IMG/VR virus record: IMGVR_UViG_3300030110_002778
Span: 1-58,603 of that record
Length of the DNA stretch: 58,603 bases
Direction: 5' to 3' (one strand)
Origin: a virus
The position numbers were made by a program, and so were the translations under genes. Of the stretch, positions 5,606-49,073 are shown one piece after another; position 1 is the stretch's first letter; each line of letters starts with the position of its first letter. The notes beneath the pieces were generated by a model that made no database searches, had not been told where the DNA came from, and saw only the letters and a list, made by a program, of their open reading frames with translations.

Positions 5606-5870
5606 CTTTCTTTAATTTTAATAGTTTAGCGCATTTTTCATAATCTTCTAGTTCTTCAAAGTAATCAATCATACACTCTAGAACATCTATTATAGCTATA
5701 TCTCCAGCAACGACATTCCATAGGAAATAAGGCGTTTCATTCTCATCTATTAATTCATCAATAGTTTTATTGCCTGTTATAACCTCATAAGAATTGTGCA
5801 TACAACTGTCAATAATCTCCTCTTGGAACATTGGTTTATGGTATTCTTGGTAATTAAAATATTCTTCCAT
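5541..5870 (-). CDS. Small protein with UVR-like motif
   Basis: 109 aa. Acidic and helical up to residue ~85, then strongly basic. Residues about 68-85 read DYFEELEDYEKCAKLLKL, close to the UVR motif of UvrB/UvrC/ClpC, a helical hairpin for protein contact. Another gene here (55696-56001) shares EDYEKCA at the same relative place. Function unknown; a protein-protein adaptor is a guess. It ends inside the start of the next gene and follows the GroES-like gene by one base. Confidence 0.7.
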   Translation of the reverse strand: MEEYFNYQEYHKPMFQEEIIDSCMHNSYEVITGNKTIDELIDENETPYFLWNVVAGDIAIIDVLECMIDYFEELEDYEKCAKLLKLKKDGEIKCRRKIKRINKVRNRGL

Positions 5871-5871
5871 A

Positions 5872-6498
5872 CTATTCTACTTTAGCTAAAATGTCAGCAT
5901 TTCTCATTCTCATTAGAGTTTTGCCTTCTATTTTCATATTATACTCAGAGTTTTCAGAAAACATTATTTCGTCTCCTTTTTTTATTCCTTGTTCTTTCAT
6001 CCAGTCGCTTAAATGCTCTATGTATCCATGTAAAGTTATGTCTTCTTTTTCAGACTTCAAATAAATACCACTCTTTGTTTTTATATCATCATCAGTTTCT
6101 GTCTTTTGTTTTACAAAATTCCAGTGATGTAACATTTTTAATTTTCCTTTTCTTACTCTAGCATATATATGTTGCCAGTGTACTTTATATATATTCTTTT
6201 TACCTATCCACTCAACCAAATGGTTACTTTTATAATCCTCATCAGTAATCTCCTTGTTGGAAGCGTTAGAAGAACTAGCTGTAATAAGATGATGGAAATA
6301 TATTTTATCTCCTTTTTTAACATCAAACTCAAGCCCTTTTGGTAAAGAAACAGGTGTTTCGTAAATCACACCATATTGCCTAGCTAACACAAGAGGATTA
6401 TAAGTTATATTTATTTCTATTTCAACACCATTAATTTCTACAGTGTCTTCATACGGTTTTTCTACTTCTACTAGAAAAAAGTTTTTTGGTATTTGCAT
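5872..6498 (-). CDS. GroES-like co-chaperonin with two tandem domains
   Basis: 208 aa. The second half matches GroES: a mobile-loop-like segment at 139-148 (IKTKSGIYLK, compare GGIxL of GroES), a short GYI strand at 158-160, GIKKGDEIMF at 171-180, and YNMKIEGKTLMRMRN then ADILAKVE at the end, as in GroES (..KIDGxE..xxxRxxDILAVxE). The first half has VKKGDKIYFHHLI and a domain-like layout suggesting a diverged second copy. GroES caps the GroEL chamber; T4 gp31 is a phage version needed to fold the capsid protein. This one lies in the fibre operon, so it could help host GroEL fold fibre or capsid proteins. The tandem form is unusual; single GroES is about 97 aa. Confidence 0.75.
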   Translation of the reverse strand: MQIPKNFFLVEVEKPYEDTVEINGVEIEINITYNPLVLARQYGVIYETPVSLPKGLEFDVKKGDKIYFHHLITASSSNASNKEITDEDYKSNHLVEWIGKKNIYKVHWQHIYARVRKGKLKMLHHWNFVKQKTETDDDIKTKSGIYLKSEKEDITLHGYIEHLSDWMKEQGIKKGDEIMFSENSEYNMKIEGKTLMRMRNADILAKVE

Positions 6499-7197: not shown

Positions 7198-8820
7198 CAT
7201 TACCCTACTAATTTTTTCATGATGTAAATAAATATGTCTTGCTGAACCTGATAAACACTGAACACCAACATAAGGTATTAAGTCTATATCATCTGTAAGT
7301 ACCGCAGAAAGGTCTGTTGTAGCGGCAGCTTTTCTTCCATATACTCGTAATTCTTCATCGTCAGAAACTGCTCTACCTATATTACCAGTAAATGTTATAG
7401 TAGTTGCAGTAAGAGAAGCGATGGTTCCTATTAATTGTTGCGAGCTATTTACAACAACATCACCAGCAACAAATTGAGTAGTAGCATCAACACCATCTAC
7501 AGCAACATTATTTGTTGTTCCTGAACCATACCCACTACCATTATTAATTAACACCCCAGTTTGGAAATGATTATCTACAGTTGTGGTTACACCATCAGTA
7601 CCCATATATGTTTTTTGAGTTAAACCATATTGAGTTCCGTTTATGTAAACAGCTACTTTACGGTTTGCATCAATAGATATTTTTAACCTATATGTTTGGG
7701 TAAGAACTGTTGGAGATATTCCTAAATCAGTTACATACTGTGCATCACCTATACTATAAGCAAAGTGTAAGTTTCCATTAGCATATATCTCTCCTAAATC
7801 ATCATCGCTAGCTAAAAAGAAATAAGCTTGGTTAGCATCAGTTGCAACTACTGATGTATTGGTTAGTTTTAATCCAGCCCAGAAAGCTGCGTTTGATTTC
7901 ATGTTTGTTCCAAACGAAACACAACACTCCCATGTAACTTGATTTTCTGTTCCCCATAAAATACCAGACCAAGCAGAATCAGCTTGAGAATCTCTTTTAG
8001 TATCTAAATGTGGAGCAACTATAATCTGGTCATTATCTGTTCCTGCTGTAGTTAATTTAACACCCGCATAAGCACCGCCCCAATCACAATTATTACTAGC
8101 AGCATTAGTACCAACTAATTCAAAATGCTTATTTGTAGGAACGTAAGAAGCTTCTGTATCTGTATCATCTATAAGGGCGTTAAGGCCAGGTCTTTTATAA
8201 AAGTATTCTTCTAGATAATATCTATTAGCTGTTTCTAAATTTCCTTCAACAATTAAATCTGTTGTTACTGTTGTAATATTATTAGTAGTGTCTACAATTA
8301 TTTTATCTCCTGTTGAGCTAGTAACCACAAAAGCAGTAGTGCTAGAAGATAAACCAAACTTAGCTGTAGCATCATTATTACCTACATGTAAAGTATGAGT
8401 AGGTGTAGCCTGGTTTATACCAAAATAAGTAGCTTTAGCATAAATTCTATTACTACTATCTATAATAGACATATAAGAATTGTTTCCACCAGAAGCAGAA
8501 TCTATATCACCTATAGCTACGTTATATTGAGATGTGGAATTACCGATTTGTAATAAATCGTATCCTGATGAGTTTTCTATAAGAGCAGCAGCACTTACAT
8601 TACCAACTACATGTAGTGTAGCTCCAGGTTTTTCTTGATTAGATATATTAGCAGATATACTACCTTTTACATCTATGTTTGAGGTTCCTACGTATAAAGA
8701 ACTTGCTGTACCTGTGCCATCCTCAATGTTTGTTGGGTTTCCTGTAAACCCTGTAGCGTTAGATGTTTTTAATAACATCTTGTATGTACTAGCAACCGTA
8801 GCTCCTGTTAATGTACTCAT
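7189..8820 (-). CDS. Tail fibre / appendage protein with possible lectin-like domain
   Basis: 543 aa, beta-rich and Ser/Thr/Asn/Gly-rich. The N-terminal ~200 residues contain fibre-like repeats (TLHVVGNVSAAAL, HTLHVGNNDATAKFG). About 205-430 looks like a jelly-roll or concanavalin-like lectin domain (NNCDWGGAYAGVKLTTAGTD, WSGILWGTENQVTWECCVSF, QTYRLKISIDANRKVAVYIN), a layout common in carbohydrate-binding phage appendages. The C-terminus forms further beta strands. It should be a receptor-binding or accessory fibre. Domain names are inferred from pattern, not from a search. Confidence 0.75.
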   Translation of the reverse strand: MSTLTGATVASTYKMLLKTSNATGFTGNPTNIEDGTGTASSLYVGTSNIDVKGSISANISNQEKPGATLHVVGNVSAAALIENSSGYDLLQIGNSTSQYNVAIGDIDSASGGNNSYMSIIDSSNRIYAKATYFGINQATPTHTLHVGNNDATAKFGLSSSTTAFVVTSSTGDKIIVDTTNNITTVTTDLIVEGNLETANRYYLEEYFYKRPGLNALIDDTDTEASYVPTNKHFELVGTNAASNNCDWGGAYAGVKLTTAGTDNDQIIVAPHLDTKRDSQADSAWSGILWGTENQVTWECCVSFGTNMKSNAAFWAGLKLTNTSVVATDANQAYFFLASDDDLGEIYANGNLHFAYSIGDAQYVTDLGISPTVLTQTYRLKISIDANRKVAVYINGTQYGLTQKTYMGTDGVTTTVDNHFQTGVLINNGSGYGSGTTNNVAVDGVDATTQFVAGDVVVNSSQQLIGTIASLTATTITFTGNIGRAVSDDEELRVYGRKAAATTDLSAVLTDDIDLIPYVGVQCLSGSARHIYLHHEKISRVMFE

Positions 8821-9509: not shown

Positions 9510-9845
9510 TTGGAAAAATCTAATTACCTAAAAAATTATAGACCTACTCTGTATTTTTTTAGAGATAGATACGGGTTAAAGGTATCTGAAATAGAGTTTT
9601 TGTTCTTTGTGTACGATTTAAAATATTTTACGTATATGTACGTAAATGATAATTATAGGTCGTCAAGAAATTTTGTAGATAGGAATATTCCTAAAATAAA
9701 AGATAGGGGTTATATTTACATTTACCAAGAACAATACATGAAAAGAGTTAGAAAGTATGCTATATCCCAAAAAGGAAAAATGTTAGTATCTAGGTTCTAT
9801 AGAATATTAGAGGGAAAAGAATCTATAAATAAAAATTATTTATGA
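9510..9845 (+). CDS. Winged-helix (MarR-like) protein
   Basis: 111 aa from a TTG start at 9510; the first in-frame ATG is ~40 residues in and would destroy the fold. Residues 20-95 read as a winged helix: VSEIEFLFFVYDL (helix), SSRNFVDRNIPKIKDRGYIY (helix-turn-helix end) and the wing YIYIYQEQYMKRVRKYAISQ leading to KGKMLVSRFYRILEG, close to the MarR C-terminal pattern. It is first in the late plus-strand block and next to operator-like palindromes, so a switch or late-gene regulator is likely. It overlaps the next gene by 4 bp. It could also be a structural adaptor with this fold. Confidence 0.6.
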   Translation: MEKSNYLKNYRPTLYFFRDRYGLKVSEIEFLFFVYDLKYFTYMYVNDNYRSSRNFVDRNIPKIKDRGYIYIYQEQYMKRVRKYAISQKGKMLVSRFYRILEGKESINKNYL

Positions 9846-12799
9846 AAATATTACAAAAATATGCAAACGGAGGTAACGTTGCAACTGAGAAACGTGATAG
9901 TGCTGGGGGTAACACAGTCTATAATTTCTTAGATTTATCAAACGACTTAAAAGGAAAGAACGGAAAGAATAGAGTTTACAATAGAGGTGATGGAGCTGGC
10001 TTTTCTTCTAACATAGTTTTTCTTGAAAATGAAATCAAATTTAAAAGCGGTAGTCAGTTTAACAACATTTTATCAAACCTTTCCAGGAAAGGTTCAGGTA
10101 ACGCTTTGATTGGCCCCTCATCTGGTGGGCTGGGCTCTACAAATATTGTTGCTGTTAGAACAAAAACTAATTCTGAGGGTCAAATAGAAATAGTTTCAGT
10201 TATTACTGACGCATCATTAAAGGATGGTGCTGGAGATTATCAAAAAGGGGGTTATTATTCAGAAATAACAAACCCTGCTGTAACAGGGAAGCCAATAGAG
10301 GTTTTTCAATTTGAAGTACAGAAAGGAGCTAAAGAGGGACTGTCAGACCGAAGAGGGTACAATCAGGTTGATTTAGATAGAACTTTTGGGAGATATGGAA
10401 ACTATAACCCTAAGACTATAAGCACTGAAATATTTAAAAGTTTATCTAATAAATTAACAGTATTAAACGAAGACCAATGGTACAGTGATGAATTAAAAGA
10501 TGATTATTCTATTCAAAAGTTAAACTACACAAATTATTTTATGCCAACTTCTAATGAAAAAAGAAACGTTAGTGTAGATAGACCTTTTACAACTGCGGCA
10601 AAAATTCCACTAAACAGAAAATTTGATATAAATGACCCAAGAAACATGGATAGGTTTATGAATTATTTAGCTGTAAATCAATTTGGGTATAAATCATCAG
10701 TGGATAATAAGTTTTTTAGGCAATATTTTTCTCATAATGATGTAAATCTAAGAAAAATATCTAGAGAAATGCACAATCAGATGAACGGAGGTTTTCAAGG
10801 GTTTATTTACAAAAAACAATCATATAAAGATATTCCTAGAGATTATCAATATGCGTTAGACACTATGATAAAACAAATCATTGGGGCTTATGGCGCTTCG
10901 GGTGAGCTGCAAGGAATGTTAAATGAAAATGGAGAGTGGAACAGAGAAGTTTTAGATAAGGTTTTTCAAATTAATAATGTAGATGGGGTAAACTACCTTA
11001 CTTTAAACACAGGTGGATATATGGGGGCAGGAGAAAGTAAGGGTAGGGCTAAAAATACAATTTACAATTTTAAATTAGATGGTAGTGGAGTGGGTGAATA
11101 TATAAAAGAGTCTTTAAATAATCATATAATAAAGCACAGCCCTATAATGACACAATCTTTATCAAAAGCCAATTCTGGTGAAGGAAATAATTTTACGGCA
11201 GAGGGGCCAAATTTAGCTTTTAATATTAAAACAACTAGCCCAGTTGACGGCACACCTGTAATTTCTAGGCATTTTGTAGGAAACTTTAACACTGAATCTG
11301 AAGCAGCTATTATAGCAGAAAATTACAACAACAAGCCCCTTGAGGAAAGAATCCGTGAATACAAAAATAATGAAAACAAATATATTTCTGTTGCTGATGT
11401 TACTGAAGACACAAATGGCACTGTTGTTAATGTTGTTGATTTTAACTCTGGCTCACAAAAAATTAATCCACTTTCTTACCAAAAGCCAGGTGGATTTAAA
11501 TATTTTAAACCAACTAATACTATTTTTATTTCTTCTAATGTAGAGCTTAACAAAAGGAAAATGCAAGAAACATTAAAGATAGATAAGATTACAAATTTAG
11601 ATAGCAAAGTCCAAACTCATGATAATACACTTTTACCTACTATTGGAACTTACGAAAAAGTTGAAAATGGTACGGGTATTGTAACTGAAGAAGAAGTTAC
11701 GGGTTCAATGGGAGACTGGACTAATGAAGAGTTAGCTGCCACACAGGAAGAATTTCCTTATAATCAAACAGTTTCTAAAGGTAGTTCTTATAATATACAA
11801 AAAGGAGATACTCTAACTAAAATAGCTAGAGATAATAACACCACCATTGAAAATATAATGGACTTGAACCCTTTTATAAAGGACCCAAATAAAATATACG
11901 CTGGAGATAATATAACTTTAAAGCTAGAAACAAAAGACGGACTTCCTTCTTATCAAAGTGTTACTAAAGAAAATCCTTTTGGGGGTATTCCAGCTGGAAC
12001 AGAACAAGAAAACAAACAAATATATTTAGATGGTCAGTTGCAAAATTGGGATAGTCAAAATAAAAGATGGTCTCCTGCTACTGAAACAAAAAGAAATAAA
12101 GAAAATTTAGTTGATAGCACTTTGAGTCAAAATAATGATAAAAACATTATGTTGGATAATTTAAACCAAAGTGGTAATCAAGTTGTTGAGGAAATTAGCT
12201 CAGAGGCTGGTAATGTTTCTGGTGTAACAAATGTTGCTGGAAATATTATGAAAAAATATTTTGAAAATCAAAAGAAAAAACAAGAAGAAAAAGATAATAA
12301 AGAAGAGGAAAGTAAAGATTTGGTTAATAATAAAGATAACAAAGAAGAAGAAGAAGAAAGAAAAGTTCCTATGGCTACACAAAAAAGTGCTGGCGTTTAT
12401 GTTGATGAGCAAGGTGAAAGAATACCTCAAACTCAACTACATAACTATGAGATACAAGAAATGGATGAAGGTGGAGTTGTGAGGCCTATGTTTGCGGCTG
12501 GTTATTCTTATACTAAAAAAGAAAAAGAAGAAGAGGAAGGGGAAGATGATGATAAAAAAACAAAAGAATCTGATGACAATGACCCAAGTGTGCCAAAGAA
12601 ACCAAAATTAACTATAAGGCAAAGAATAGATGAGATGTTAAAAAGAAAGGCTAGAAAACAAAGAACAAAAAAAGAATTAAAAGAATCAGGAGAATGGAAG
12701 AATTTAAGTTTTGCTGAAAAAAGATTAACTTTAAAAAAAGCAAAAGAAGAAGGGGACTATAAAAAAGGTGCAATATATAAAAACCCAAACGTAAAATAA
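9842..12799 (+). CDS. Large LysM-containing protein, probably virion-associated
   Basis: 985 aa. Only one domain is recognised: LysM at about 648-695 (YNIQKGDTLTKIARDNNTTI, then IMDLNPFIKDPNKIYAGDNI), which binds peptidoglycan. The first ~640 residues are mixed alpha/beta with no known family. The last ~200 are low-complexity Lys/Glu-rich coil with DEGGVVRPMF. The N-terminus KILQKYANGGNV carries the recurrent aromatic-xx-GG motif. It sits upstream of terminase with the EF-hand protein. A virion wall-binding or entry protein is plausible, but nothing shows catalysis. Confidence 0.7.
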   Translation: MKILQKYANGGNVATEKRDSAGGNTVYNFLDLSNDLKGKNGKNRVYNRGDGAGFSSNIVFLENEIKFKSGSQFNNILSNLSRKGSGNALIGPSSGGLGSTNIVAVRTKTNSEGQIEIVSVITDASLKDGAGDYQKGGYYSEITNPAVTGKPIEVFQFEVQKGAKEGLSDRRGYNQVDLDRTFGRYGNYNPKTISTEIFKSLSNKLTVLNEDQWYSDELKDDYSIQKLNYTNYFMPTSNEKRNVSVDRPFTTAAKIPLNRKFDINDPRNMDRFMNYLAVNQFGYKSSVDNKFFRQYFSHNDVNLRKISREMHNQMNGGFQGFIYKKQSYKDIPRDYQYALDTMIKQIIGAYGASGELQGMLNENGEWNREVLDKVFQINNVDGVNYLTLNTGGYMGAGESKGRAKNTIYNFKLDGSGVGEYIKESLNNHIIKHSPIMTQSLSKANSGEGNNFTAEGPNLAFNIKTTSPVDGTPVISRHFVGNFNTESEAAIIAENYNNKPLEERIREYKNNENKYISVADVTEDTNGTVVNVVDFNSGSQKINPLSYQKPGGFKYFKPTNTIFISSNVELNKRKMQETLKIDKITNLDSKVQTHDNTLLPTIGTYEKVENGTGIVTEEEVTGSMGDWTNEELAATQEEFPYNQTVSKGSSYNIQKGDTLTKIARDNNTTIENIMDLNPFIKDPNKIYAGDNITLKLETKDGLPSYQSVTKENPFGGIPAGTEQENKQIYLDGQLQNWDSQNKRWSPATETKRNKENLVDSTLSQNNDKNIMLDNLNQSGNQVVEEISSEAGNVSGVTNVAGNIMKKYFENQKKKQEEKDNKEEESKDLVNNKDNKEEEEERKVPMATQKSAGVYVDEQGERIPQTQLHNYEIQEMDEGGVVRPMFAAGYSYTKKEKEEEEGEDDDKKTKESDDNDPSVPKKPKLTIRQRIDEMLKRKARKQRTKKELKESGEWKNLSFAEKRLTLKKAKEEGDYKKGAIYKNPNVK

Positions 12800-41200: not shown

Positions 41201-43778
41201 CAATGTAAGGAGAAGTATTGCTGATAATTTAATATATCAAGAAAAGCTTGCATCTAAATATGGAAAACCTAATGAGTATAAAGACTTTGGTTTTATGTTT
41301 GATAAGACAAAAAATCAAACCTTAGAAAGCAGAGCAAAAGAATTAGGTATAGACAAAGATTTAATAAAAGATTATATAGAGATAGAATATAGGATTAATG
41401 GAGAATCTAAAACATTTGCTTTACATAAAGATATGCATGGTAGTATGATTAAAAGTAATTTTTGGTCTAGGTTTCCAGCTGCTCAAAAACTAATTGAAAT
41501 TGCATCAGGAAGTACGGCAACAAGAATGACTACTACTATTTTAGAATGGTCGTTTATGCCTGTTAACTTTATAAGAGACTCCCAAAATATATTATTTAAC
41601 AGAAATATTTATTCTCCTCATATTCCTGAGGCAATTAGAAATTACACTGGAGACATTAATAATGTTGCTGGTGCGGCATTCTCATTTAATAAATCTGCAA
41701 ATCCACTAATACAAAAATATTATCAAAGGGGAGGGGCTCTTGATTTTTTATCTTTAGAAGGTAGAAGAATAGGCACCGAAGAAAGCCCGTTTTTAAGTTA
41801 TGGGTGGTATCAAAAAATGAAAAAAAATAATAGTTGGTTATTCGAGGCGGATAGAGTTCTTTCAAACGCCAATAAAAAAACATTTGATGCTTTGACTTAC
41901 CTTGGTGAGTCTAGTGAGTTGTTAACGAGATTAGCTGTTTTTGAGAGACAAATTACAAATAGAACAAAAGAATTTGAGCAACAATACAAAAGAAAACCTA
42001 ATGAAAAAGAATTAATTGAAATAGAACAATTTGCAGCCAACGATGCTAGAAACAATATTGACTTTAGTCAAGGTGGTACTATTACAAAATTCTTAGATTC
42101 TTTTATACCTTACACAAACGCAAGTGTTCAAGGTTTTAGAGTTTTCTCCAAAAACATGATTAAAAACCCTAAGCAAACTGCTTATAAATATGCTCAATTT
42201 GCATCTTATGTTGGAGGTTTACAAATGTATAATTGGCAAACTTATCCTGATGAAATGCAAAAATTATGGGAGGACCGACCTTATGAGTTTATGAACAACC
42301 ATGTTTTCTTTTTACCATATAAGGATAAAGCTGGAAACCCAATGTATATAAAGTTAGCAAAAGAACATTCTCAATTAGGTATGTCTGCTATGATTGAAGG
42401 ATATATAGCTGAGGCTTTCACAGGCACAAATTATGTTACTCAGGGAGATTATGGTGTTTTTGTAAGTGAAGAAAATAAAAACTTGTTACAAAAATCTATT
42501 CAATCTGGAACTCCATTTGGAGCAGGACTTGATGTATTAAATTTTGATATGTTTTATGATATACCTTTATTTAAAGGAATGAGGGGTTATCAAGATAATT
42601 GGGACTCCTTCAGACACAGAAGAATTTATTACAAAGACGAACAAGACCATAATGCAGATTTATCAATAGAGTATAACCAACCTGGTTCTTATAATGCCAC
42701 AAATCCTATGTTTAAAGATTTAGCAACTGGCCTAGAGATGATTACTGGAAGTGATATATCCCCATCAAGATTACAATATATGCTAGAAGCTTTTGGTGTT
42801 AAGGGTTCTATATTTGAGGGGGGGATGTTTGGTTACAATGAGTTTTTTGACCAACCAAACGCCAACGAACTCAAATATACTGTAGACGGAATGATTGAAA
42901 TGGGATTACTGGACGCTCTTGGTCAAAAATCTTATAATAAGATTATTGGTAGCGTTGATATGAATGCAGAGTCAAGCGAAATAACACTGGATTGGCAAAG
43001 ACAACTACAGGAGAGTGAGAAGCTTAATAATACTGTTAGAGAATTAGAAAATAAAAACATTAGATACCTTACAAATGAATATTTAAATATTTACAAGAAA
43101 AAAGGTAAGCCTGGTTTTAAAGATGACCCAAGGACTTTAGATGTGGATGAGTTTGAAGAAATTTTAAAAGAAAAGAGATTGCAACTAGAGAATTATTTTC
43201 TCAGTAGGTATAAAGAGGTTGATGGCATAACCATTGAACAGTTGACAAAAAACATGGACCGTATTATAAATAACTGTCAAGAAGAAGCTATGTTAATCTC
43301 TTCTGGAGTTACTTATGACATAAGAGATATAAGAGATATAAAAAACTTTGACCCTGAGCAAGCTGCGGAAAAATTCTACGCCTTAATGAACTCAGTTAGC
43401 CCACTTAGGCAAGAAGAGTTAATGAGACAAGCTACTATTTGTAATTTATTCACTGGTAAAAAAGGTTCAAAAACATTTGAAAAAACTTTTTATTCACTAA
43501 ACGAATACGGGTGGGAAGCTTATAGAAAAGATTTAACCGAACAAGAAAGATATGTTCTAGATGTTCAAGCTGCTATTTTAAAAGATAGAAAATATGAGGA
43601 AATGTGGCTACAAGGACTGGTCTCTGTTCAGGGGGGTATTAGTTTAAATAAAGTTCAGCTTATAGCGCCTTGGCATGAACTGGCAGAAGAGAGTATGGAT
43701 GAAAATGGTAATATAGACAAAGAAAGATTAATGGAAATAGCCAAACAATATATTGAGTTGGAGTTTGGAAATGAATAA
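35259..43778 (+). CDS. Giant polyvalent / ejection protein (LPD38-like C-terminal region)
   Basis: 2839 aa, the largest gene. The N-terminal ~800 residues are acidic and helical. A hydrophobic stretch near 830-865 (GSAIPLIVAISVATGPLSGY, LIRSGVGAG) could insert in a membrane. Around residues 2180-2350 the series FDALTYLGESSELLTRLAVF, NDARNNIDFSQGGTITKFLD and FIPYTNASVQGFRVF resembles the LPD38 domain of phage polyvalent proteins. No DxDGD RNA-polymerase motif was seen. It probably is packaged and ejected, like T7 gp16. The early hydrophobic region fits passage through the cell membrane. Only the LPD38-like part is recognised. Confidence 0.65.
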   Translation: MQDDNGYKILDTLLKTKKAKENDLSMTPDQMYKYAEPYGDDYDGLLRGFAKEFYDKELTDDFVNGVLKSFYDDGYISVKKKSKNQENQNPPMDSTSGLDDGVSDSGNQNNEITGDPIQDSYFYGFEHNLPLQDDDNSWPWKKIEYDQDRHISFNYENGDYYINGKLATEEEITGFSIEDYEQAWVNSYNEMWQGVPKTETQLISKDYGIFKDIDSNTPGIRINHPAQIKYSIDGNFDVQANTGQAYINNEIGQVNQYTKNSIPSFDIISSLGNGDSYKHFYETKTYKNVYDDKIKSHEVKNPYYEDGNYNISNLDNMMGDLFYSNTEFDKNFKRINEIVKTLNDDKNKKFSERKYYDYTSEPAGGFDKAVGEREHTLYQGSLNEEGEKLYEELVGYYQELENNILDAELAVLMSKEQFFHSSNPGGNPFADNVVLGDPIINDTFMSGIGEESSVANDVMSYYLSSEGDKFSPVGRFLKNESDRRGLSKTMHLAEYLSLIKNDDQLQKFYDEVELYMDDSELMFLKTDRKGWGKTAEEEEFKLFYLNRKWINSTEEERPKIEKEIEELRATMDWIGSEMFDIDGSRINKPDYEKMPESDKQRIDKFTSEFNAVYEEIAGNTDRTELLSLYHQVASEKRYLSNLKNSYKVTLDNGVSISMDELVNNIREWMLETSKESTFIKDIISAPANALKDIAVYFLGEGANAEIDNLEYTDRDRKRIADLFENYQEHEETLNTRLLALGRFLFLNSDPGTIDEAKRDGYFRENAFGEGLVEGLFNLAPWNWETMGQERYDYESSRDILQDMITTAEELGYELTEDQKKAAEQSIASQVMYGTGSAIPLIVAISVATGPLSGYLIRSGVGAGSRGMSWARSRLGSTSTWVKNVAKVDSNKAAYYVTRKAIQDSGKMGQFTFRFAEEIAKGYMSFEMAGAHGEMGAGIHGGTVLFQSIFPQTKLSRKILWSDDWNTSLKPKDLKLVQRGEQVGVYDWIDDAGNIVKSFKPSIADIPKATVFTEKGMQFLANTTGGTFGMYLGEIFQHCADNGIDLEAIGRDVFGISMEGEEGRAIEKLLVTTYMSALFSGFQAVKTNSVCERALVNMSLNPKVPEQTRNEIKHYLDMFEYYKGNQSFQGNRYNNMSAKQIFENDPFASLYNIEIDKNGNVAPKDNNVNNGYFTKESFKFNKDKNIYEAEMPDSNVKFMIKRNSKKNGGEFYIEVGGEKQILGKNLTEATKYLNDFILQREKGIIDTQDPRAGMFEQIRSFNRESVNKEQASQHKSKKISVFNDMAGNMLGKDGYMLKLFPELRVEIKPERKEGAYEWGVQSIEIEQAISNYKNSIKEILIRNPHLDVVTYQQGGKTYIELMARTESISNAQRLAKQYNIGNILNLKDGKDIKVEINGPDINNSKTESIYDKKSNMYDFTKSGLSGIDKNNSYFGKSIIDRVTDVADMTFIQTQRAGAIKNIDGILTNLSNSKTGLNPNTSKKFWSTLQKELKNEDNLSMVDAYNKTIEILREKGVSKKFLDQMEYVGAEKMLNSVTPYQTRIDFDPNLLRTDGMVYDLNQMFSYREAPPGKTNTKQSNLFELDINGNIVRKDKQTIYESINESLNNRYNLRQAVKFLPEKMWEMIGKNFWTRDKAFKDAFKYNNRWFQGMYDKVYKDNPQLAAYLKNLGNQTIMFKENSAGSSGITKIETFKMRQMFAKMTAPELRLFENIMFNRHVISMDKARDSKKVDLDKTIAQINLLLKSNAIPRPKAEIESLVEKAKAEAESMGMVLQDPSFIYSGKKGYGEYSLSTKENILIEKSQLLENGNIDVQLHTKNIDGKLITETPWRLKHGDKGEIVQLEQALIFMEQSKELHNGKTNEGKSGNINIFDKYNTLSFDKVNAKVDKYFEHFQYIARKMYDSGIINKDAYETMISREYLPREFVDYVSTLKNGTTSGGNVENIFEPLQSLKGGFDNGPLNMDAKNMVLNKNAAVNTMIWQNNVRRSIADNLIYQEKLASKYGKPNEYKDFGFMFDKTKNQTLESRAKELGIDKDLIKDYIEIEYRINGESKTFALHKDMHGSMIKSNFWSRFPAAQKLIEIASGSTATRMTTTILEWSFMPVNFIRDSQNILFNRNIYSPHIPEAIRNYTGDINNVAGAAFSFNKSANPLIQKYYQRGGALDFLSLEGRRIGTEESPFLSYGWYQKMKKNNSWLFEADRVLSNANKKTFDALTYLGESSELLTRLAVFERQITNRTKEFEQQYKRKPNEKELIEIEQFAANDARNNIDFSQGGTITKFLDSFIPYTNASVQGFRVFSKNMIKNPKQTAYKYAQFASYVGGLQMYNWQTYPDEMQKLWEDRPYEFMNNHVFFLPYKDKAGNPMYIKLAKEHSQLGMSAMIEGYIAEAFTGTNYVTQGDYGVFVSEENKNLLQKSIQSGTPFGAGLDVLNFDMFYDIPLFKGMRGYQDNWDSFRHRRIYYKDEQDHNADLSIEYNQPGSYNATNPMFKDLATGLEMITGSDISPSRLQYMLEAFGVKGSIFEGGMFGYNEFFDQPNANELKYTVDGMIEMGLLDALGQKSYNKIIGSVDMNAESSEITLDWQRQLQESEKLNNTVRELENKNIRYLTNEYLNIYKKKGKPGFKDDPRTLDVDEFEEILKEKRLQLENYFLSRYKEVDGITIEQLTKNMDRIINNCQEEAMLISSGVTYDIRDIRDIKNFDPEQAAEKFYALMNSVSPLRQEELMRQATICNLFTGKKGSKTFEKTFYSLNEYGWEAYRKDLTEQERYVLDVQAAILKDRKYEEMWLQGLVSVQGGISLNKVQLIAPWHELAEESMDENGNIDKERLMEIAKQYIELEFGNE

Positions 43779-43793
43779 AAAACGTTATATTTG
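43764..43793 (+). promoter_or_regulatory. Promoter of the envelope cassette, inside the giant gene's end
   Basis: TTTG (43764-43767), 18 bp and TATATTTG (43786-43793), 4 nt before the ATG at 43798. It overlaps the last codons of the 2839-aa gene. This spacing decides the start of the next gene at 43798, which gives a clean signal peptide and a nearly leaderless mRNA. Confidence 0.75.
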
Positions 43794-43797
43794 TAAA

Positions 43798-44829
43798 ATG
43801 AGAAATTTAATAACTATATTTTTATTGTTCTTTTTTGTGTCTGAAGCGCAAATAAAAGACTTTTTTAAGTATTCCACTGTGTATACGTCTTCGTCAATGA
43901 GCACACCTTTCTCTGAAAGAGAAGATTACATAGCGATTGATAAAGGTTATGAAAATGTTACACAGATTCATCCTTATGATTATAATATAACTTTCGGAAT
44001 ACGAAAAATAGCAAGATTTGATTATGAATACAAAGTTAAAACATGGTATTACGGCACTGAAAAAGCCGTTGCAGATAACGTTACTATTGGTAATGCTAAT
44101 GGTTGGGAGTATCTACTTAATTATTCGTTTATACGTAATCGTGGCAATAGCTTTACTGAGCAAAATTTCTGGCTTAGATACTTGGGAACTAAAAGTGTAA
44201 CTAAACTACAGTACACAGATAACCAAAGAGTAGATTTAAGGTACAGTTCCTTTGACACTAGATACAGAATTAATAAAGGTAATTGGGATTTTACAGCTGG
44301 TGTTTGTTTTAGAGTACACAACCCTTATGGTATTAATCCTATAGAAGATTTCTGGACTCCAGGTGAATCAACTTTTAATCAATTAGCTGGTGACTTTGGG
44401 TATTCTACTCAGTATGTAAACGGTAGATGGCACTGGTTTAATAGTGATAGTGAATTGATAGCAACATCTAATGATGAGTTTTTTAAACATTATTTTGGTG
44501 ATGCTGTAGCTAGCTTTAATGAAAGAGAATTAGAAAAACTAGGCTTACAAAAAGAATTAAGCGCTGTTTTTGGCGTTGCTTATTATAAATATCAAAACAA
44601 CTTTTGGTTACATGTTTGGGGTAATATACTACCTCTTCATTATGGTTTAGATGAATATTCTTACGAATACGGCCAAGATGATTTTGATTTATTTGAATGG
44701 GATGCTGGTATAGTTTTAGGTGTAAGACTTAATAAACACTTAGGTTTGTTTGTTGAGGGAACTCACATGAAATACTGGATGAAGCCTGTTTTTGATGTTA
44801 AGTTTGGGTTTAATTATTTAATATTTTAG
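43798..44829 (+). CDS. Outer-membrane beta-barrel-like protein with signal peptide
   Basis: 343 aa from ATG at 43798. Signal peptide MRNLITIFLLFFFVSEAQ with cleavage likely at or before Q18. The mature part alternates aromatic and polar residues in ~10-residue strands with Asn/Asp turns (YDYNITFGIRKIARFDYEYK, RYRINKGNWDFTAGVCFRVH) and ends KFGFNYLIF. A terminal Phe is the typical beta-signal for outer-membrane insertion by BAM. It would sit in the host outer membrane. Possible roles: superinfection block, receptor masking, or help in lysis. Barrel assignment is from pattern. Confidence 0.65.
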   Translation: MRNLITIFLLFFFVSEAQIKDFFKYSTVYTSSSMSTPFSEREDYIAIDKGYENVTQIHPYDYNITFGIRKIARFDYEYKVKTWYYGTEKAVADNVTIGNANGWEYLLNYSFIRNRGNSFTEQNFWLRYLGTKSVTKLQYTDNQRVDLRYSSFDTRYRINKGNWDFTAGVCFRVHNPYGINPIEDFWTPGESTFNQLAGDFGYSTQYVNGRWHWFNSDSELIATSNDEFFKHYFGDAVASFNERELEKLGLQKELSAVFGVAYYKYQNNFWLHVWGNILPLHYGLDEYSYEYGQDDFDLFEWDAGIVLGVRLNKHLGLFVEGTHMKYWMKPVFDVKFGFNYLIF

Positions 44830-44832
44830 CGT

Positions 44833-45606
44833 ATGAAAAAGTTACTACTATTATTTGTTTTTATAAGTTCATTTGTTTTTAGTCAAGAGTATGACTACCA
44901 GCAATTATGTTTAGATTGTGCTGAAGCCAATGGTTATTATTGTGGTGACGACCCTTCTAATTGGACGCAATATGCACCACTTGGATGTGTACAAACTTCA
45001 TGGCTAAATGATGGATGGGTCGATTGTATTGATGAGGGCGATGAAAATGGTGCGGTACCAACATCACCTATGGATTGTGTGCCCCCTCCTCCAGACTGTG
45101 ATACAGTTTATGTAGATGTTATAGAATATATATTTGAAACAGATACTGTAGAAATAGAAGTTCCTTTTTATATATACGAAACTATATTCCAAATAGATAC
45201 TGTATACAACACAGAATATATTACACAAATAGTTGTAGACACTGTACAGATAGAAACATTTATTCCTGAGTTTATATATATAACTGACACAGTATATGTG
45301 TATGAAGATGTGCTTGACACATTGTTTGTAGATGTTATTGAGTATGTAGATGTAATTGTATTTGACACAATAGTAGAAGTTGAATACGTAGAGTTTTTTA
45401 CTACAGATACAATAGTAGAATATATTGATGTTGTAATAACAGAATATTTAGATTGTGACACGGGACTTCCTTGCTCATCTAATATTCCTGAAATTATAGA
45501 GCAATCTAAAAAAGATAATAAGTTTTATAACTTGTTAGGGCAAGCCATCAAAGAGCCTAATGGTATTTACATTGAAGATGGTAAGGTTAAGTATAAATTA
45601 AAATAA
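44833..45606 (+). CDS. Secreted repeat protein with T9SS-like C-terminal signal
   Basis: 257 aa. Signal peptide MKKLLLLFVFISSFVFSQ. Residues ~22-90 are Cys-rich with TSWLNDGWVDCIDEGDEN, which recalls a calcium-binding LDLa-type turn. Residues ~95-215 hold about eight repeats of D-T-[VIL]-x-hydrophobic, a beta-rich stalk. The last ~29 residues (KFYNLLGQAIKEPNGIYIED then GKVKYKLK) resemble the type A C-terminal sorting domain of the Bacteroidetes type IX secretion system. It could be exported across the outer membrane and displayed. Two lines of evidence, the SPI signal and the C-terminal domain, agree. Function unknown. Confidence 0.7.
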   Translation: MKKLLLLFVFISSFVFSQEYDYQQLCLDCAEANGYYCGDDPSNWTQYAPLGCVQTSWLNDGWVDCIDEGDENGAVPTSPMDCVPPPPDCDTVYVDVIEYIFETDTVEIEVPFYIYETIFQIDTVYNTEYITQIVVDTVQIETFIPEFIYITDTVYVYEDVLDTLFVDVIEYVDVIVFDTIVEVEYVEFFTTDTIVEYIDVVITEYLDCDTGLPCSSNIPEIIEQSKKDNKFYNLLGQAIKEPNGIYIEDGKVKYKLK

Positions 45607-45612
45607 TTATTT

Positions 45613-45828
45613 ATGAAAATTTTTAAAGATGATAATAATTGGAACGAAAAATCTATTATAGGTTTTATAGCGTTTCTTATCATGGTTATTGTAATGATAA
45701 TCGACTTAGTAACTGGGGCAGTAGGATATGACTTAGTTATTAATAAATTTGTGTATGACTCATTTGTTTGGGTTGTGCTAGGTTGCTTTGGTATAAGCGG
45801 AGTAGAAAAATTTGCAAAGAAAAAATAA
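45613..45828 (+). CDS. Holin-like two-TM protein
   Basis: 71 aa with two hydrophobic helices (IIGFIAFLIMVIVMIIDLVT and FVWVVLGCFGISGVEKF) joined by a short loop, and a basic C-terminus (KFAKKK). Size, topology and placing beside a spanin-like and a lysozyme-like gene fit a holin that opens the inner membrane. A second holin-like gene occurs at 49358-49747, so one may be an antiholin. No family assigned. Confidence 0.65.
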   Translation: MKIFKDDNNWNEKSIIGFIAFLIMVIVMIIDLVTGAVGYDLVINKFVYDSFVWVVLGCFGISGVEKFAKKK

Positions 45829-45829
45829 A

Positions 45830-46174
45830 ATGGCAAAAGAATTATCAGAGGATAGTAAATTTAACATAAGTATTAAAACCCTTGCTTGGATTGTGGCAGG
45901 AGTAGCTACAGTAATAGCGGGTTATTATGGGGTTCTTAGTAATATAAATAGTAAATTCATGGAATTAGAACAAAAGGTTGAGGAAGCTTTAGAAAAACCT
46001 AAACCAGGAACAGGAACTTATACTATAGATATGGGAGACCCAGCCGCATCACAAACGTGGCCACCTACAAGAATGGAGTTCAACATGAAAGATGAAATGG
46101 CTAGACAGAAAATTGACAACATTATAAAAGAGCTAGATGAACTTAAAGAAGAACTTAAAGAATTAAAAAAATGA
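45830..46174 (+). CDS. Single-TM coiled-coil protein, spanin-like
   Basis: 114 aa from ATG at 45830 (an upstream non-ATG start is rejected because it overlaps the holin-like gene). TM helix at about 18-38 (IKTLAWIVAGVATVIAGYYG), a coil, a Pro/Thr-rich segment, and a C-terminal coiled coil (IDNIIKELDELKEELKELKK). An N-terminal anchor with a long periplasmic coil matches an inner-membrane spanin, but no partner lipoprotein is certain; the next gene may supply it. Stop overlaps the next ATG (ATGA). Confidence 0.55.
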   Translation: MAKELSEDSKFNISIKTLAWIVAGVATVIAGYYGVLSNINSKFMELEQKVEEALEKPKPGTGTYTIDMGDPAASQTWPPTRMEFNMKDEMARQKIDNIIKELDELKEELKELKK

Positions 46175-46572
46175 CAAGAAGAATTAATATTACAAGCTTT
46201 GTTTATATATTAATAATGATATTGATATTTGCTTGTGGCACCACCTTCGGTCAAGAGTTTGTATCCTCTGATAATTTTAAAAATAAAATAGCTAAAGATA
46301 TTGTTGTCGTAGAATTTTGGGCTGGATGGAACGCTCAGAATGAATTTAAAGAATTAACAAAATTAAATGATTGTATGGTTTATAGAATAGATATATCAAA
46401 ACACATGGATATTCAAATGAAGTATGATGTGTCTGCTATACCTACAGTTATTGTATTTGATAACGGAATAGAAAAAGAAAAGTTTGGAGCCACTGTTATG
46501 TTTCAGCTAGATGCTGACAAAAAAACTGTACAGAACTCCATTGATACATTATTACTAAATAAATTTAACTAG
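46171..46572 (+). CDS. Exported thioredoxin-fold protein without active-site cysteines
   Basis: 133 aa. The N-terminus is a hydrophobic signal (FVYILIMILIFAC) with a possible lipobox at C22, or cleavage after FGQ28. The mature protein follows the thioredoxin fold: IVVVEFWAGWNAQNEFKEL (44-62) where WCGPC is normally found, and cis-proline in SAIPTVIVFDNG (P91). The CxxC pair is replaced by A51-G52-W53-N54, so it cannot be a normal oxidoreductase. As a redox-dead thioredoxin it may act as a binding or chaperone domain in the periplasm. Neighbours are lysis or envelope genes. Confidence 0.7.
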   Translation: MTRRINITSFVYILIMILIFACGTTFGQEFVSSDNFKNKIAKDIVVVEFWAGWNAQNEFKELTKLNDCMVYRIDISKHMDIQMKYDVSAIPTVIVFDNGIEKEKFGATVMFQLDADKKTVQNSIDTLLLNKFN

Positions 46573-46574
46573 AT

Positions 46575-46748
46575 ATGAATTGGATAAACTCTTGGAAAAA
46601 AGGAAATAAAAAAAACAAACTTGATATTAAATTAAGATTTGGAATGTTAACAATATTTGAATTACATCTTTGTTTTGAAATGTGTGAGAAATCATGTCAA
46701 TGCAAAAAAATGAGATTTATGATATTAAATTTTGGATTTGAGATATGA
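46575..46748 (+). CDS. Small Cys-containing protein
   Basis: 57 aa, read by hand from ATG at 46575 to TGA at 46748, overlapping the next gene by 4 bp (ATGA). Basic start (MNWINSWKKGNKKNKLDIKL) and a C-terminal hydrophobic/Cys region with CFEMCEKSCQCKKM (four Cys). No family is recognised. The tight overlap on the 3' side and the 2-bp gap on the 5' side argue for a real gene. It could bind metal or be disulphide-bonded. Confidence 0.55.
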   Translation: MNWINSWKKGNKKNKLDIKLRFGMLTIFELHLCFEMCEKSCQCKKMRFMILNFGFEI

Positions 46749-47611
46749 AAATAAAAAAAAGAATAAAGCCAGAAACTAAGGTAAACAAATACAACATGGG
46801 AGGAATGCCTCAAGGAGCACCGCCACCTGGAATGCCAGGAATGGGAGGAGGTGGAGCGCCACAAAACATGCCACCAGAATTAATGGCCGCTCTAATGGGT
46901 GGAGGAAAAGGTGAACCAGAGCCAGGCGAAGGTGGCTCTATGGATGATGTAGCTGAAGAAGGAGCATCGAAAGAAAAAAACGCAAAGTTTAAAAAAGCTA
47001 TTAATTTTGTTGAAGCCTCTGGTAATATGGATTATTCTTTAGGTAATAAAGCTGGCTCATCGGCAGTAGGCCCTTATCAAATAATGTTTTCCGTACACAA
47101 AGATGAGTTAAAGAAAATGTTTGGTATAAATAGCCGTGAAGAATTTATGGGTAATGAAGAGGCTCAAGAGGGTTATATGGATTATCTTGTAAATGAAGCT
47201 TATCCTAGACAAATAAACGCTATTAAAAAATATTACGGTCCTGGAGGAACTAAATTAAAAGACAACCAAATGGATATGGGTGTTATAGGAGATTTAACTG
47301 ACGAAGATTTAATGGCTTTAGAACACTTTTTAGGGCACCGTGATTTAATGAATTATTTTGCTCACATTAGAGAAGGAAAGAAAAAAGATTTTAAAGTAAA
47401 AGGTAAAAACCTTTCTGTTGATGAATACTTAAAAAGATTTAATTCTTCTCTTAAGTCAACAAAAGAAAGGCCAGCTACTGAAGAGGCAGGACCAACAGGA
47501 ATGGGGCCAGGTGGACCTCCTATGGGGCCAGGTGGACCAGGTGGACCAGGCGGACCTCCAATGCAATTTATGGGTGGTGGTCAGGAATTACCTCCAGGCT
47601 TGTCTGTTTAA
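46745..47611 (+). CDS. Lysozyme/transglycosylase-like protein with Gly-Pro-Met linkers
   Basis: 288 aa. N-terminal GG motif (VNKYNMGGMP), then Gly/Pro/Met low-complexity to residue ~75. The catalytic-type domain starts at ~80 with INFVEASGNMDYSLG (E90 candidate) and GSSAVGPYQIMFSV at 104-117, the pattern of SLT/lysozyme-fold glycosidases, and continues helical to ~240. The C-terminus is another Gly/Pro stretch. It would cut peptidoglycan, either as virion lytic enzyme for entry or as the endolysin. The GG motif shared with internal proteins favours the virion role. Confidence 0.65.
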   Translation: MKIKKRIKPETKVNKYNMGGMPQGAPPPGMPGMGGGGAPQNMPPELMAALMGGGKGEPEPGEGGSMDDVAEEGASKEKNAKFKKAINFVEASGNMDYSLGNKAGSSAVGPYQIMFSVHKDELKKMFGINSREEFMGNEEAQEGYMDYLVNEAYPRQINAIKKYYGPGGTKLKDNQMDMGVIGDLTDEDLMALEHFLGHRDLMNYFAHIREGKKKDFKVKGKNLSVDEYLKRFNSSLKSTKERPATEEAGPTGMGPGGPPMGPGGPGGPGGPPMQFMGGGQELPPGLSV

Positions 47612-47646: not shown

Positions 47647-48009
47647 ATGGCAACAGTAACAGCGGCATTAACATTAACAAGTACAACAGCTACTACAGAT
47701 GATTTAAAACTATCTGTATCAAGTAATTTAACTACAGTGGAACCTTCGGTTGGTATATCAAGAATATCTCTAGTTGGAGACGCAGCTGCTACAACTATAT
47801 TTGAGAATAACACAACAACAACGTATGTATATTTAAAGAACATGGACAGTACAAATCACATAAAGTGGTTTAATGATACTGATGATGGGGTTGGGATTTT
47901 GTGGCCAGGTGAATTTGCTTTCTTCGCTGTAATAGATGCAGAGGGTTTAAAAGTACAGGCCAATACGGGTAATTGTATCTTAGAATACGCATATTGGACT
48001 AAAGGATAA
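47647..48009 (+). CDS. Small beta-rich virion protein
   Basis: 120 aa. Beta-sandwich-like: Thr/Ala-rich start (TVTAALTLTSTTATTDDLKL), a TYVYLKNMDS core strand, and ending in ILEYAYWTKG. The core layout (YLKNMDSTNHIKWF.., then WPGEFAFFAV) parallels that of the 157-aa protein at 48504 (RITNLDNENFVSLLF, YGQSFIYN), so the two are probably diverged duplicates. Such small proteins are often capsid or tail decorations. Role inferred. Confidence 0.6.
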   Translation: MATVTAALTLTSTTATTDDLKLSVSSNLTTVEPSVGISRISLVGDAAATTIFENNTTTTYVYLKNMDSTNHIKWFNDTDDGVGILWPGEFAFFAVIDAEGLKVQANTGNCILEYAYWTKG

Positions 48010-48014
48010 TTAAA

Positions 48015-48500
48015 ATGAAATTAGAAGTAATTAGATTTTCAAGTGAGGCCGATAGTACATCGGGCCTATTATTTGATGTAACAAACGGAAGAAAATTCCT
48101 AGCTTATACACTAGAAGATGAATACAGAGACAGCGAAAATGCGAAAGTTATGGCAGAGACTAGAATACCTGCTGGCACCTATCAAGTTATTCTTAGAACG
48201 ATTGGTAGAATACATACTAATTATACTAAGCGTTTTGCTGATATTCATAAAGGTACTCTTCATGTTATCAACGTTCCTAACTTTAAGTATATCCTTATTC
48301 ATTGTGGTAATACTGATGAACACACGGCTGGGTGTTTACTTGTGGGGGACACACAAAAAAACAACCAAATAGATAAGAACGGATTTATAGGTAGCTCTAC
48401 AAAAGCTTACTCTAGAATATATCCTCCTATTGCTGAGGCGTTGGAATGTGGAGAAGAAGTTACAATTACTTACGTAGACTTTGACGATATAAAAAAATAA
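48015..48500 (+). CDS. DUF5675 family protein, possible lysis enzyme
   Basis: 161 aa. Shows the DUF5675 pattern: TRIPAGTYQVILR at 49-61, HVINVPNFKYILIHCGNTDE at 83-102, and TAGCLLVGDT at 104-113. H96 and C107 with G98-N99 look like a His/Cys pair of an L,D-transpeptidase-like hydrolase fold. The family is common in phage lysis regions and its reaction is not established. Between two virion-type genes and near a lysozyme-like gene, it may be the endolysin. Call firm, function tentative. Confidence 0.75.
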   Translation: MKLEVIRFSSEADSTSGLLFDVTNGRKFLAYTLEDEYRDSENAKVMAETRIPAGTYQVILRTIGRIHTNYTKRFADIHKGTLHVINVPNFKYILIHCGNTDEHTAGCLLVGDTQKNNQIDKNGFIGSSTKAYSRIYPPIAEALECGEEVTITYVDFDDIKK

Positions 48501-48503
48501 AAC

Positions 48504-48977
48504 ATGGCAAGAACATTAACATCATCTACGCTTAGGGTAACAATAGAAGAGGACTTAACTCTTAATGGTGTTCAGCAAGGAACAAAAAACACTTTAACTA
48601 TACCTTCTATAACGGAGGTTTCTAAAAGAATTATTAATGTTCCAGCTAGTGAGGTGATAGTGGTATCTATGGATACAGCTGTTGCTGCTGGTACTTTTTC
48701 TGAAACTGATGTTAGATATATAAGAATAACTAATTTAGATAATGAAAACTTTGTATCATTGTTATTTAAAAATGAAAACAATGATGAGTTTGCTGTTAAA
48801 TTAGATTACGGACAATCCTTTATTTACAATGCTGACCTAGTAGGTGGGGTTGTGGATACAATGGATGCTGTAGACAACGCAGGATTAACCCCAGGTACGT
48901 TTGGAGACCTAGTAAACATTACAGCTACAGCCAACACAGCTGCTGTAGATTTAGAAGTTTTTGTAGCTTCTGCATAA
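48504..48977 (+). CDS. Small beta-rich virion protein (paralogue of 47647 gene)
   Basis: 157 aa. Thr/Val/Asp-rich, with DVRYIRITNLDNENFVSLLF and VKLDYGQSFIYNADLVGG, then an Ala/Thr end (NITATANTAAVDLEVFVASA). It resembles the 120-aa protein two genes upstream in strand order. Last gene of the late block, followed by a strong terminator. A decoration or fibre-base protein is plausible. Confidence 0.6.
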   Translation: MARTLTSSTLRVTIEEDLTLNGVQQGTKNTLTIPSITEVSKRIINVPASEVIVVSMDTAVAAGTFSETDVRYIRITNLDNENFVSLLFKNENNDEFAVKLDYGQSFIYNADLVGGVVDTMDAVDNAGLTPGTFGDLVNITATANTAAVDLEVFVASA

Positions 48978-49038
48978 AACCCCTTGTATTATAAAATATT
49001 ATTTGTATATTGAACTGTGTTTTTCATAGTTTTGATTA

Positions 49039-49073
49039 GTGAGTCAGACGCTCTGTTTGGCTCACTTTTTTTT
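49039..49073 (+). terminator. Terminator between convergent blocks
   Basis: GTGAGTCAGAC (49039-49049), loop GCTCT and GTTTGGCTCAC (49055-49065) pair over 11 bp with two G-U pairs, followed by eight T. It ends the plus-strand late block just before the stop of the convergent minus gene at 49072. Confidence 0.88.

Follow-up and report, generated by a model that had tools for sequence, protein, structure and literature searches.

A conserved envelope gene module of marine flavobacterial phages with a candidate cargo of the host type IX secretion system

Marine Bacteroidota export their surface adhesins and enzymes through the type IX secretion system (T9SS). Known flavophages adsorb by way of T9SS-exported surface adhesins and gliding proteins, and mutations affecting gliding or the T9SS confer phage resistance (PMC13288928). 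Phages may also supply cargo of their own: Cryophage genes encode proteins with T9SS sorting domains, and the authors who described them propose that the host T9SS is hijacked (PMC7468147). In bacteria, genes for cargo and shuttle are known to be paired in the case of the T9SS outer-membrane barrels PorV and PorP/SprF (PMC12618676). The locus described here, from the IMG/VR virus record IMGVR_UViG_3300030110_002778 (a 59,697-bp contig, of which positions 1 to 58,603, a stretch of 58,603 nucleotides, form the window analyzed), places an outer-membrane barrel gene directly beside a gene for a candidate T9SS-type cargo. Six open reading frames (ORFs) at 43798-46748, all on the + strand and spaced by +3, +6, +1, -4, and +2 nt, encode the barrel (B), the cargo (C), a protein with two hydrophobic segments (H), a protein with one transmembrane (TM) segment and a coiled-coil-like region (K), a thioredoxin-fold protein (T), and a small Cys protein (y). 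The original prediction, made from the DNA letters, saw in them an envelope-remodeling cassette of mostly exported or membrane proteins. The six co-directional, tightly packed ORFs are real, and their envelope character is borne out by signal peptides following the Bacteroidetes “Q-rule” on B, C, and T and by hydrophobic segments in H and K. The proposed boundary at 46748 does not hold, as packed genes continue to 48977 and a terminator closes the unit beyond them (Table 1).

How well is this arrangement conserved? Searches of viral contigs gave 80 and 13 loci, and once near-identical barrels had been removed, 98 contigs with a barrel made up the comparison set. C is present in 97 of these, every time downstream of the barrel and on the same strand, K in 93, T in 89, and H and y in 42 each, while a DUF5675 gene (D) accompanies the module in 33 and a lytic-transglycosylase-like gene (L) in 4; absences are partly explained by contig ends. 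Five families recur in the fixed order B-C-(H)-K-T across marine viral contigs and are therefore not together by chance. K lies immediately upstream of T in 79 of the 80 loci fetched with the thioredoxin, its stop overlapped in the window by 4 nt of the T start. The gene upstream of the module varies (a 2839-aa gene in 9 fetched loci, a terminase in 13), so the module stays together while its surroundings change. The phages that carry this conserved B-C-(H)-K-T module are probably lytic marine phages of flavobacteria. The y protein belongs to a real conserved family but is not core: its gene in relatives (alignment A6) may follow the thioredoxin, precede the barrel, or adjoin DUF5675. Portal and further virion genes lie near the module in the source record, whose terminase shares 38-41% identity with those of Flavobacterium elemo phages and one environmental podovirus. 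These relatives, together with the Q-rule signal peptides, suggest a host in the order Flavobacteriales.

The evidence for export concerns C above all. In 62 of 62 relatives it begins with a signal peptide (hydrophobic N terminus, then a small residue and Q), which is followed by a head (about residues 18-89) with the Cys/acidic pattern C..C...C...C.W.NDGW.DC.D..DE. Next comes a stalk built of beta-type repeats rich in DT, about 118 residues long in the window protein and 22-174 across members, which YIDCDTGLPC joins to a tail of 27 residues, here called the mini-tail. In the predicted model the stalk is of low confidence and the tail is a short hairpin only; the head resembles LDL-receptor class A (LDLa) modules, which make up most of its 33 weak Foldseek matches (E about 1). 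By hidden Markov model (HMM), 52 of the 62 members match LDLa (PF00057) below the curated cut-off of 24.1, the best with an E of 4e-4 and the window protein at 16 bits. Mature C has exactly 9 Cys in all 62 members, an odd number, so one Cys must be free or in an inter-chain bond. C is also the most variable component, with a mean identity of 46% against 72% for B, as expected for a surface-exposed protein. The same head occurs twice (E 5e-28 and 4e-27) in a 1138-aa protein from a Crocinitomicaceae metagenome-assembled genome (MAG), a protein whose C-terminal tail is canonical by TIGR04183 (35.5 bits), and a second Flavobacteriales MAG protein likewise combines a C-type head with a T9SS-type tail. 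Among 399 genomes of the Crocinitomicaceae MAG's order, the head was found only in that MAG itself. In a Marinimicrobia MAG protein (L096), the C-type head has the Cys pattern of canonical LDLa modules (ICDGYGDCADASDEAGC), and more LDLa-like repeats come after it.

What about the mini-tail itself? When its profile was compared by hhalign with 28 host T9SS tails from two marine MAGs, the score was 19.2, a value reached by 0 of 100 column shuffles. The mini-tail also ends, 0-8 residues from the stop, several families of host proteins with an N-terminal signal peptide and Q; these were detected with a combined host and phage profile (A9), and TIGR04183 misses them too (best 0.33). The tail profile alone (A7) had no match in 114 genomes of the Crocinitomicaceae MAG's family, and the search of 345 genomes across the phylum gave one weak match, which suggests that the mini-tail is largely a feature of Flavobacteriales. 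The Flavobacteriales genomes that share the mini-tail or the head are equipped for the route, encoding SprA in 17 of 18 cases and TIGR04183 cargo in 16 of 16. That so short a signal can work has a precedent in the C-terminal domain (CTD) of HBP35, the last 22 residues of which suffice for secretion of green fluorescent protein in Porphyromonas gingivalis (PMC4804311). Phage proteins with other N termini retain the C-type stalk and the mini-tail. Finally, two phage contigs with a barrel and a mini-tail protein, L343 and L344, also encode exported proteins of 1103 and 1337 aa whose T9SS tails are canonical, scoring 36.9 and 45.0 bits with TIGR04183 against a cut-off of 23. The genes of these two proteins lie upstream of the barrel, separated from it by one to three short genes. 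Both contigs carry phage-type genes, e.g., for a family-B-like DNA polymerase and a ribonucleotide reductase as read from sequence, and therefore represent another phage lineage that shares the module.

Modeling shows B to be an outer-membrane-barrel-type protein with an amphipathic fold, and its C-terminal residue is the aromatic Phe, as predicted. The AlphaFold2 model, built from 52 aligned members, has about 12 long strands (pLDDT 76.6, pTM 0.71), with residues 74-98 modeled poorly, and all 29 Foldseek matches in the PDB with E<=0.001 are outer-membrane barrels (NanC, FapF, OmpG, and autotransporters). With TM-scores for these matches of just 0.25-0.37 by query length, the class can be regarded as secure but no specific family can be assigned. 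A signal peptide followed by Q, of the Sec/signal peptidase I (SPI) type, is present in 52 of 52 relatives, and the family alignment (A1) has no invariant Cys. BFVD holds a viral relative at 31% identity (E 6.7e-28), with further phage barrels ranking lower; the PDB sequence search gave nothing useful, and no barrel of this family was confirmed in the bacterial genomes searched.

T has the thioredoxin fold without CxxC that had been predicted for it, matching both PF00085 and PDB thioredoxins. In 132 of 132 distinct viral homologues the CxxC position reads N..N (WN..N in 128, FN..N in 4), and a strict cis-Pro pattern matches 128 of the 132 and misses the other 4. Signal peptide and Q are found in 59 of 59 relatives, with Q28 invariant; compared with cultured phages and named relatives, T matches generic thioredoxins only. 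By these residues T is shown to be a thioredoxin fold that would be incapable of disulfide chemistry. Both nucleophiles are replaced by the same invariant residue while the groove is kept, a pattern better explained by selection for binding without redox chemistry than by decay. K, too, is as described originally, with one hydrophobic segment in 33 of 33 members and a charged, coiled-coil-like tail; 22 of the 33 match PHROG 20984, of unknown function.

What might such a module do? The reading we favor, at a little under an even chance, is that of a late envelope module that uses the host T9SS to decorate the cell, B, C, K, and T together remodeling the surface late in infection. B would sit in the outer membrane. 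C would likely cross that membrane through the host T9SS by means of its shortened type-A-like tail, and would likely present at the cell surface, carried on the beta-rich stalk, a head that is rich in Cys and LDLa-like. T may act, less certainly, as a non-redox adaptor or chaperone in the periplasm with K as its partner, and the outcome, the most speculative step, could be a surface that denies adsorption or injection to other phages, or to the progeny of the phage itself. The exterior of the infected cell is thus probably redecorated, possibly to exclude rival phages; receptor blocking of the T5 type is known. A more specific version, somewhat unlikely as a whole, holds that a minimal T9SS signal of about 27 residues, of a class shared with the host and missed by HMMs, exports C as a receptor-like protein, that the NxxN pseudo-thioredoxin and K assist, and that superinfection or T9SS/gliding-dependent adsorption is blocked.

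Several observations weigh against the T9SS-decoration reading. (i) TIGR04183 and PF18962 match 0 of the 62 cargo proteins and nothing in the source record; by HMM, C is outside the T9SS type A family. (ii) T9SS signals usually comprise 70-100 residues (PMC11285876), and when the blocks of the mini-tail are compared singly, the first (YNxxGQxI) reaches significance but GIYI does not, being equaled in 7 of 100 shuffles. (iii) B is not a relative of PorP/SprF or PorV, with no NCBIfam match up to an E of 10. (iv) The module has no cultured member: tblastn found no relatives of B or C among named cultured phages, and the module is absent from the examined parts of Flavobacterium phage elemoE and MW202828, the phages with the closest terminases. 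(v) In the window the module shares its transcription unit with lysis-like genes, which would suit lysis too. The original prediction would have been given up had a T9SS-CTD HMM match and a barrel model for the 343-aa protein both been lacking; the first is lacking and the second was obtained. The T9SS idea is kept despite the HMM result because of the host-head protein with a canonical CTD, the host mini-tails, and the canonical cargo beside the barrel in two phages, and T9SS export of the window cargo is considered likely. The predicted T9SS-like tail comprises no more than the last 27 or so residues and escapes every standard model.

Could the module instead serve lysis? Under this alternative, which is unlikely, H (holin-like) and K (i-spanin-like), together with B and C, would weaken or open the outer membrane alongside the lytic enzymes L and D. 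The module and these enzymes do share one dense transcription unit, which the terminator at 49038 closes, and the DUF5675 gene adjoins it, on either side, in a third of the contigs (33/98). The predicted two-TM protein is also real, with two hydrophobic segments in 22 of 24 H family members, and K offers one segment and a coiled-coil-like tail. The holin and spanin labels themselves are unsupported, however: neither H nor K significantly matches any holin or spanin family in PHROG or Pfam (best Rz-like match E=0.078), and T, the overlapping partner of K, is an SPI-cleaved thioredoxin-fold protein with Q rather than a lipoprotein, so no o-spanin partner for K was found. Moreover, fewer than half of the contigs have H close to the barrel, L is missing in 94 of 98, and a barrel with a surface-displayed protein is not known as part of any lysis system.

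A second alternative, judged quite improbable, is that the C-terminal motif is no secretion signal but a short folding or docking hairpin, C being periplasmic or bound to the barrel. The failure of both HMMs and the low-confidence stalk and hairpin-only tail of the model would suit it, but the identical tail type ends unrelated secreted host proteins and phage proteins with different heads, and the C head is present in host T9SS proteins. Least probable of all, and indeed very unlikely, is that C loads or jams the translocon while T binds, but does not resolve, the periplasmic Cys proteins behind T9SS function and gliding (SprF/PorG-GldK disulfides), so that T9SS-exported receptors are shut off: the T9SS-like tail, the odd and invariant Cys count of C, the intact groove of T, the essential role of GldK-SprF and GldK-PorG disulfide links in gliding and secretion (PMC12635249), and the resistance of gliding/T9SS mutants (PMC13288928) are in keeping with it, but nothing links T or C directly to GldK, SprF, or PorG, mixed disulfides are impossible with Asn, and the full-length canonical cargo in two other phages resembles export, not jamming.

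Table 1. Features of the module and its surroundings in the window
Feature	Position	Strand	Description
Bacteroidetes-type promoter motif TTTG-N18-TATATTTG	43764..43793	+	TTTG at 43764, TATATTTG at 43786-43793, 4 nt before barrel ATG (43798)
B, 343-aa outer-membrane beta-barrel	43798..44829	+	Signal peptide MRNLITIFLLFFFVSEA then Q; C terminus ...FNYLIF; AlphaFold2 and Foldseek
C, 257-aa exported protein	44833..45606	+	Signal peptide, LDLa-like head, DT-repeat stalk, DCDTGLPC, 27-residue mini-tail
Mini-tail region of C, KFYNLLGQAIKEPNGIYIEDGKVKYKLK	45523..45603	+	T9SS type-A-like, short (~27 residues)
H, 71-aa protein, two hydrophobic segments	45613..45828	+	Holin-like by size only; near barrel in 42/98 contigs
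K, 114-aa protein	45830..46174	+	One N-terminal TM segment, then long charged coiled-coil-like region
T, 133-aa periplasmic thioredoxin-fold protein	46171..46572	+	PF00085 2.2e-9; NxxN for CxxC; cis-Pro conserved
y, 57-aa conserved Cys protein	46575..46748	+	Accessory, positionally mobile
L, 288-aa protein	46745..47611	+	Lytic-transglycosylase-like motif EASGN...SSAVGPYQI; in transcription unit, outside conserved module (4/98)
D, DUF5675 protein	48015..48500	+	PF18925 3.3e-24, PHROG 1501 1.5e-25; near module in 33/98
Intrinsic-terminator-like hairpin	49038..49066	+	13 pairs, T7 tail; closes unit

Since packed, lysis-like genes run up to a strong terminator, the module is probably expressed late, with the virion and lysis genes. 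L has no Pfam or PDB match, its assignment coming from a sequence motif, and PDB sequence searches with L and the DUF5675 protein gave nothing useful. The single, nearly leaderless promoter of the original prediction has a counterpart in the window, where a motif does stand 4 nt before the barrel ATG. About 3 such motifs would be expected in the window by chance and 9 were observed. The motif was dismissed as a general promoter of the cassette, since of 90 barrel genes checked in relatives, 0 have it in full upstream and 5 have TAnnTTTG alone. Taken overall, the original interpretation is partly supported: the cassette of exported and membrane proteins, the barrel, the redox-dead thioredoxin, and the T9SS as a likely export route stand, and there is no support for the holin and spanin labels or, as general features, for the six-gene boundary and the single promoter.

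Other features of the window and of the contigs compared with it deserve mention. Runs of paralogous proteins of about 120 aa (MATLTA..., ...LYIKNTD...WAFFPW...) lie near the module in the window (47647-48009, 48504-48977), at L343:125-698, and in L345 and L348; they are possible decoration proteins. The 985-aa product of window positions 9842-12799 has a domain resembling transglycosylases (PHROG 4602, 1.2e-11). Between T9SS cargo and barrel, L343 (4921-5109) and L344 (reverse strand, 5758-5943) have Pro-rich, lipoprotein-like ORFs of 62-63 aa (MRYLAILWVLIVVGCGIFNP...) that could be o-spanin-like or outer-membrane lipoproteins. In the same two contigs (e.g., L343 7750-8568 and 9164-9814; L344 reverse strand 7611-8675), at least 8 different consecutive small basic proteins share the C-terminal tag ...GGAVGPNGIL, with the variants GPNKIL, GPNRIL, and GPNGVL, apparently a common signal for sorting, packaging, or cleavage. 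In Flavobacteriales, several families of secreted host proteins of 170-217 aa (L236-L248, L251, L252, L256) end in KIYDLLGREL.EAP.GQ.YIQNGKK, undetected by TIGR04183; such tails are possibly a missed class of T9SS signals.

Phage outer-membrane barrels are already known, and the literature searched contains one report of T9SS cargo encoded by phages, the variable accessory genes of Cryophage (PMC7468147). What is new here is a conserved multigene module, a short T9SS-like tail that host proteins also have, and a family of NxxN pseudo-thioredoxins whose partner is a coiled-coil protein of the membrane. If the favored reading is true, a core phage module on the T9SS export route would add a new layer to the conflict between phages and hosts among abundant ocean bacteria. 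In addition, the minimal T9SS-like tail escapes standard annotation in phages and hosts alike, and NxxN is invariant in the redox-dead thioredoxin family, which numbers at least 132 distinct viral proteins.

How, then, does the module compare with the systems nearest to it? Phage genes for outer-membrane beta-barrels are also found in Aeromonas phage phiAS5 and Vibrio phage nt-1 (outer-membrane proteins) and among the BFVD matches, but B is of a different, larger family (about 12 strands) and sits within a conserved multigene module. Lom of phage lambda is another phage-encoded barrel. With the shuttle barrels PorV and PorP/SprF (PMC12618676), B shares its place beside a T9SS-type cargo gene, but it matches no PorP/SprF HMM, lacks a conserved Cys where SprF has a twin-Cys motif, and finds its fold matches among 12-14-strand porins, not FadL/PorV. 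T is like the thioredoxin family (PF00085) in its fold, the Trp before the active site, and the cis-Pro (IPT), whereas its homologues all have NxxN for CxxC and are not redox-active. The C head shares with the LDLa module (PF00057) the W..DG..DC.D..DE acidic/Cys pattern, and its model matches LDLa best, but it remains sub-threshold by HMM and its Cys spacing is altered. T9SS type A cargo (TIGR04183/PF18962) is matched by C in its signal peptide, in the C-terminal position of the YNxxGQxI ... GIYI ... K pattern, and in a head domain also found on canonical host cargo; C differs in a tail of about 27 rather than 70-100 residues that lacks the N-terminal half (YPNP...) and any HMM match. Cryophage, finally, offers the same kind of phage-encoded, T9SS-type cargo (PMC7468147), but there the cargo consists of variable accessory enzymes and PA14 proteins with full tails, whereas C, with its short tail, belongs to a syntenic core and goes together with a barrel and the K-T pair.

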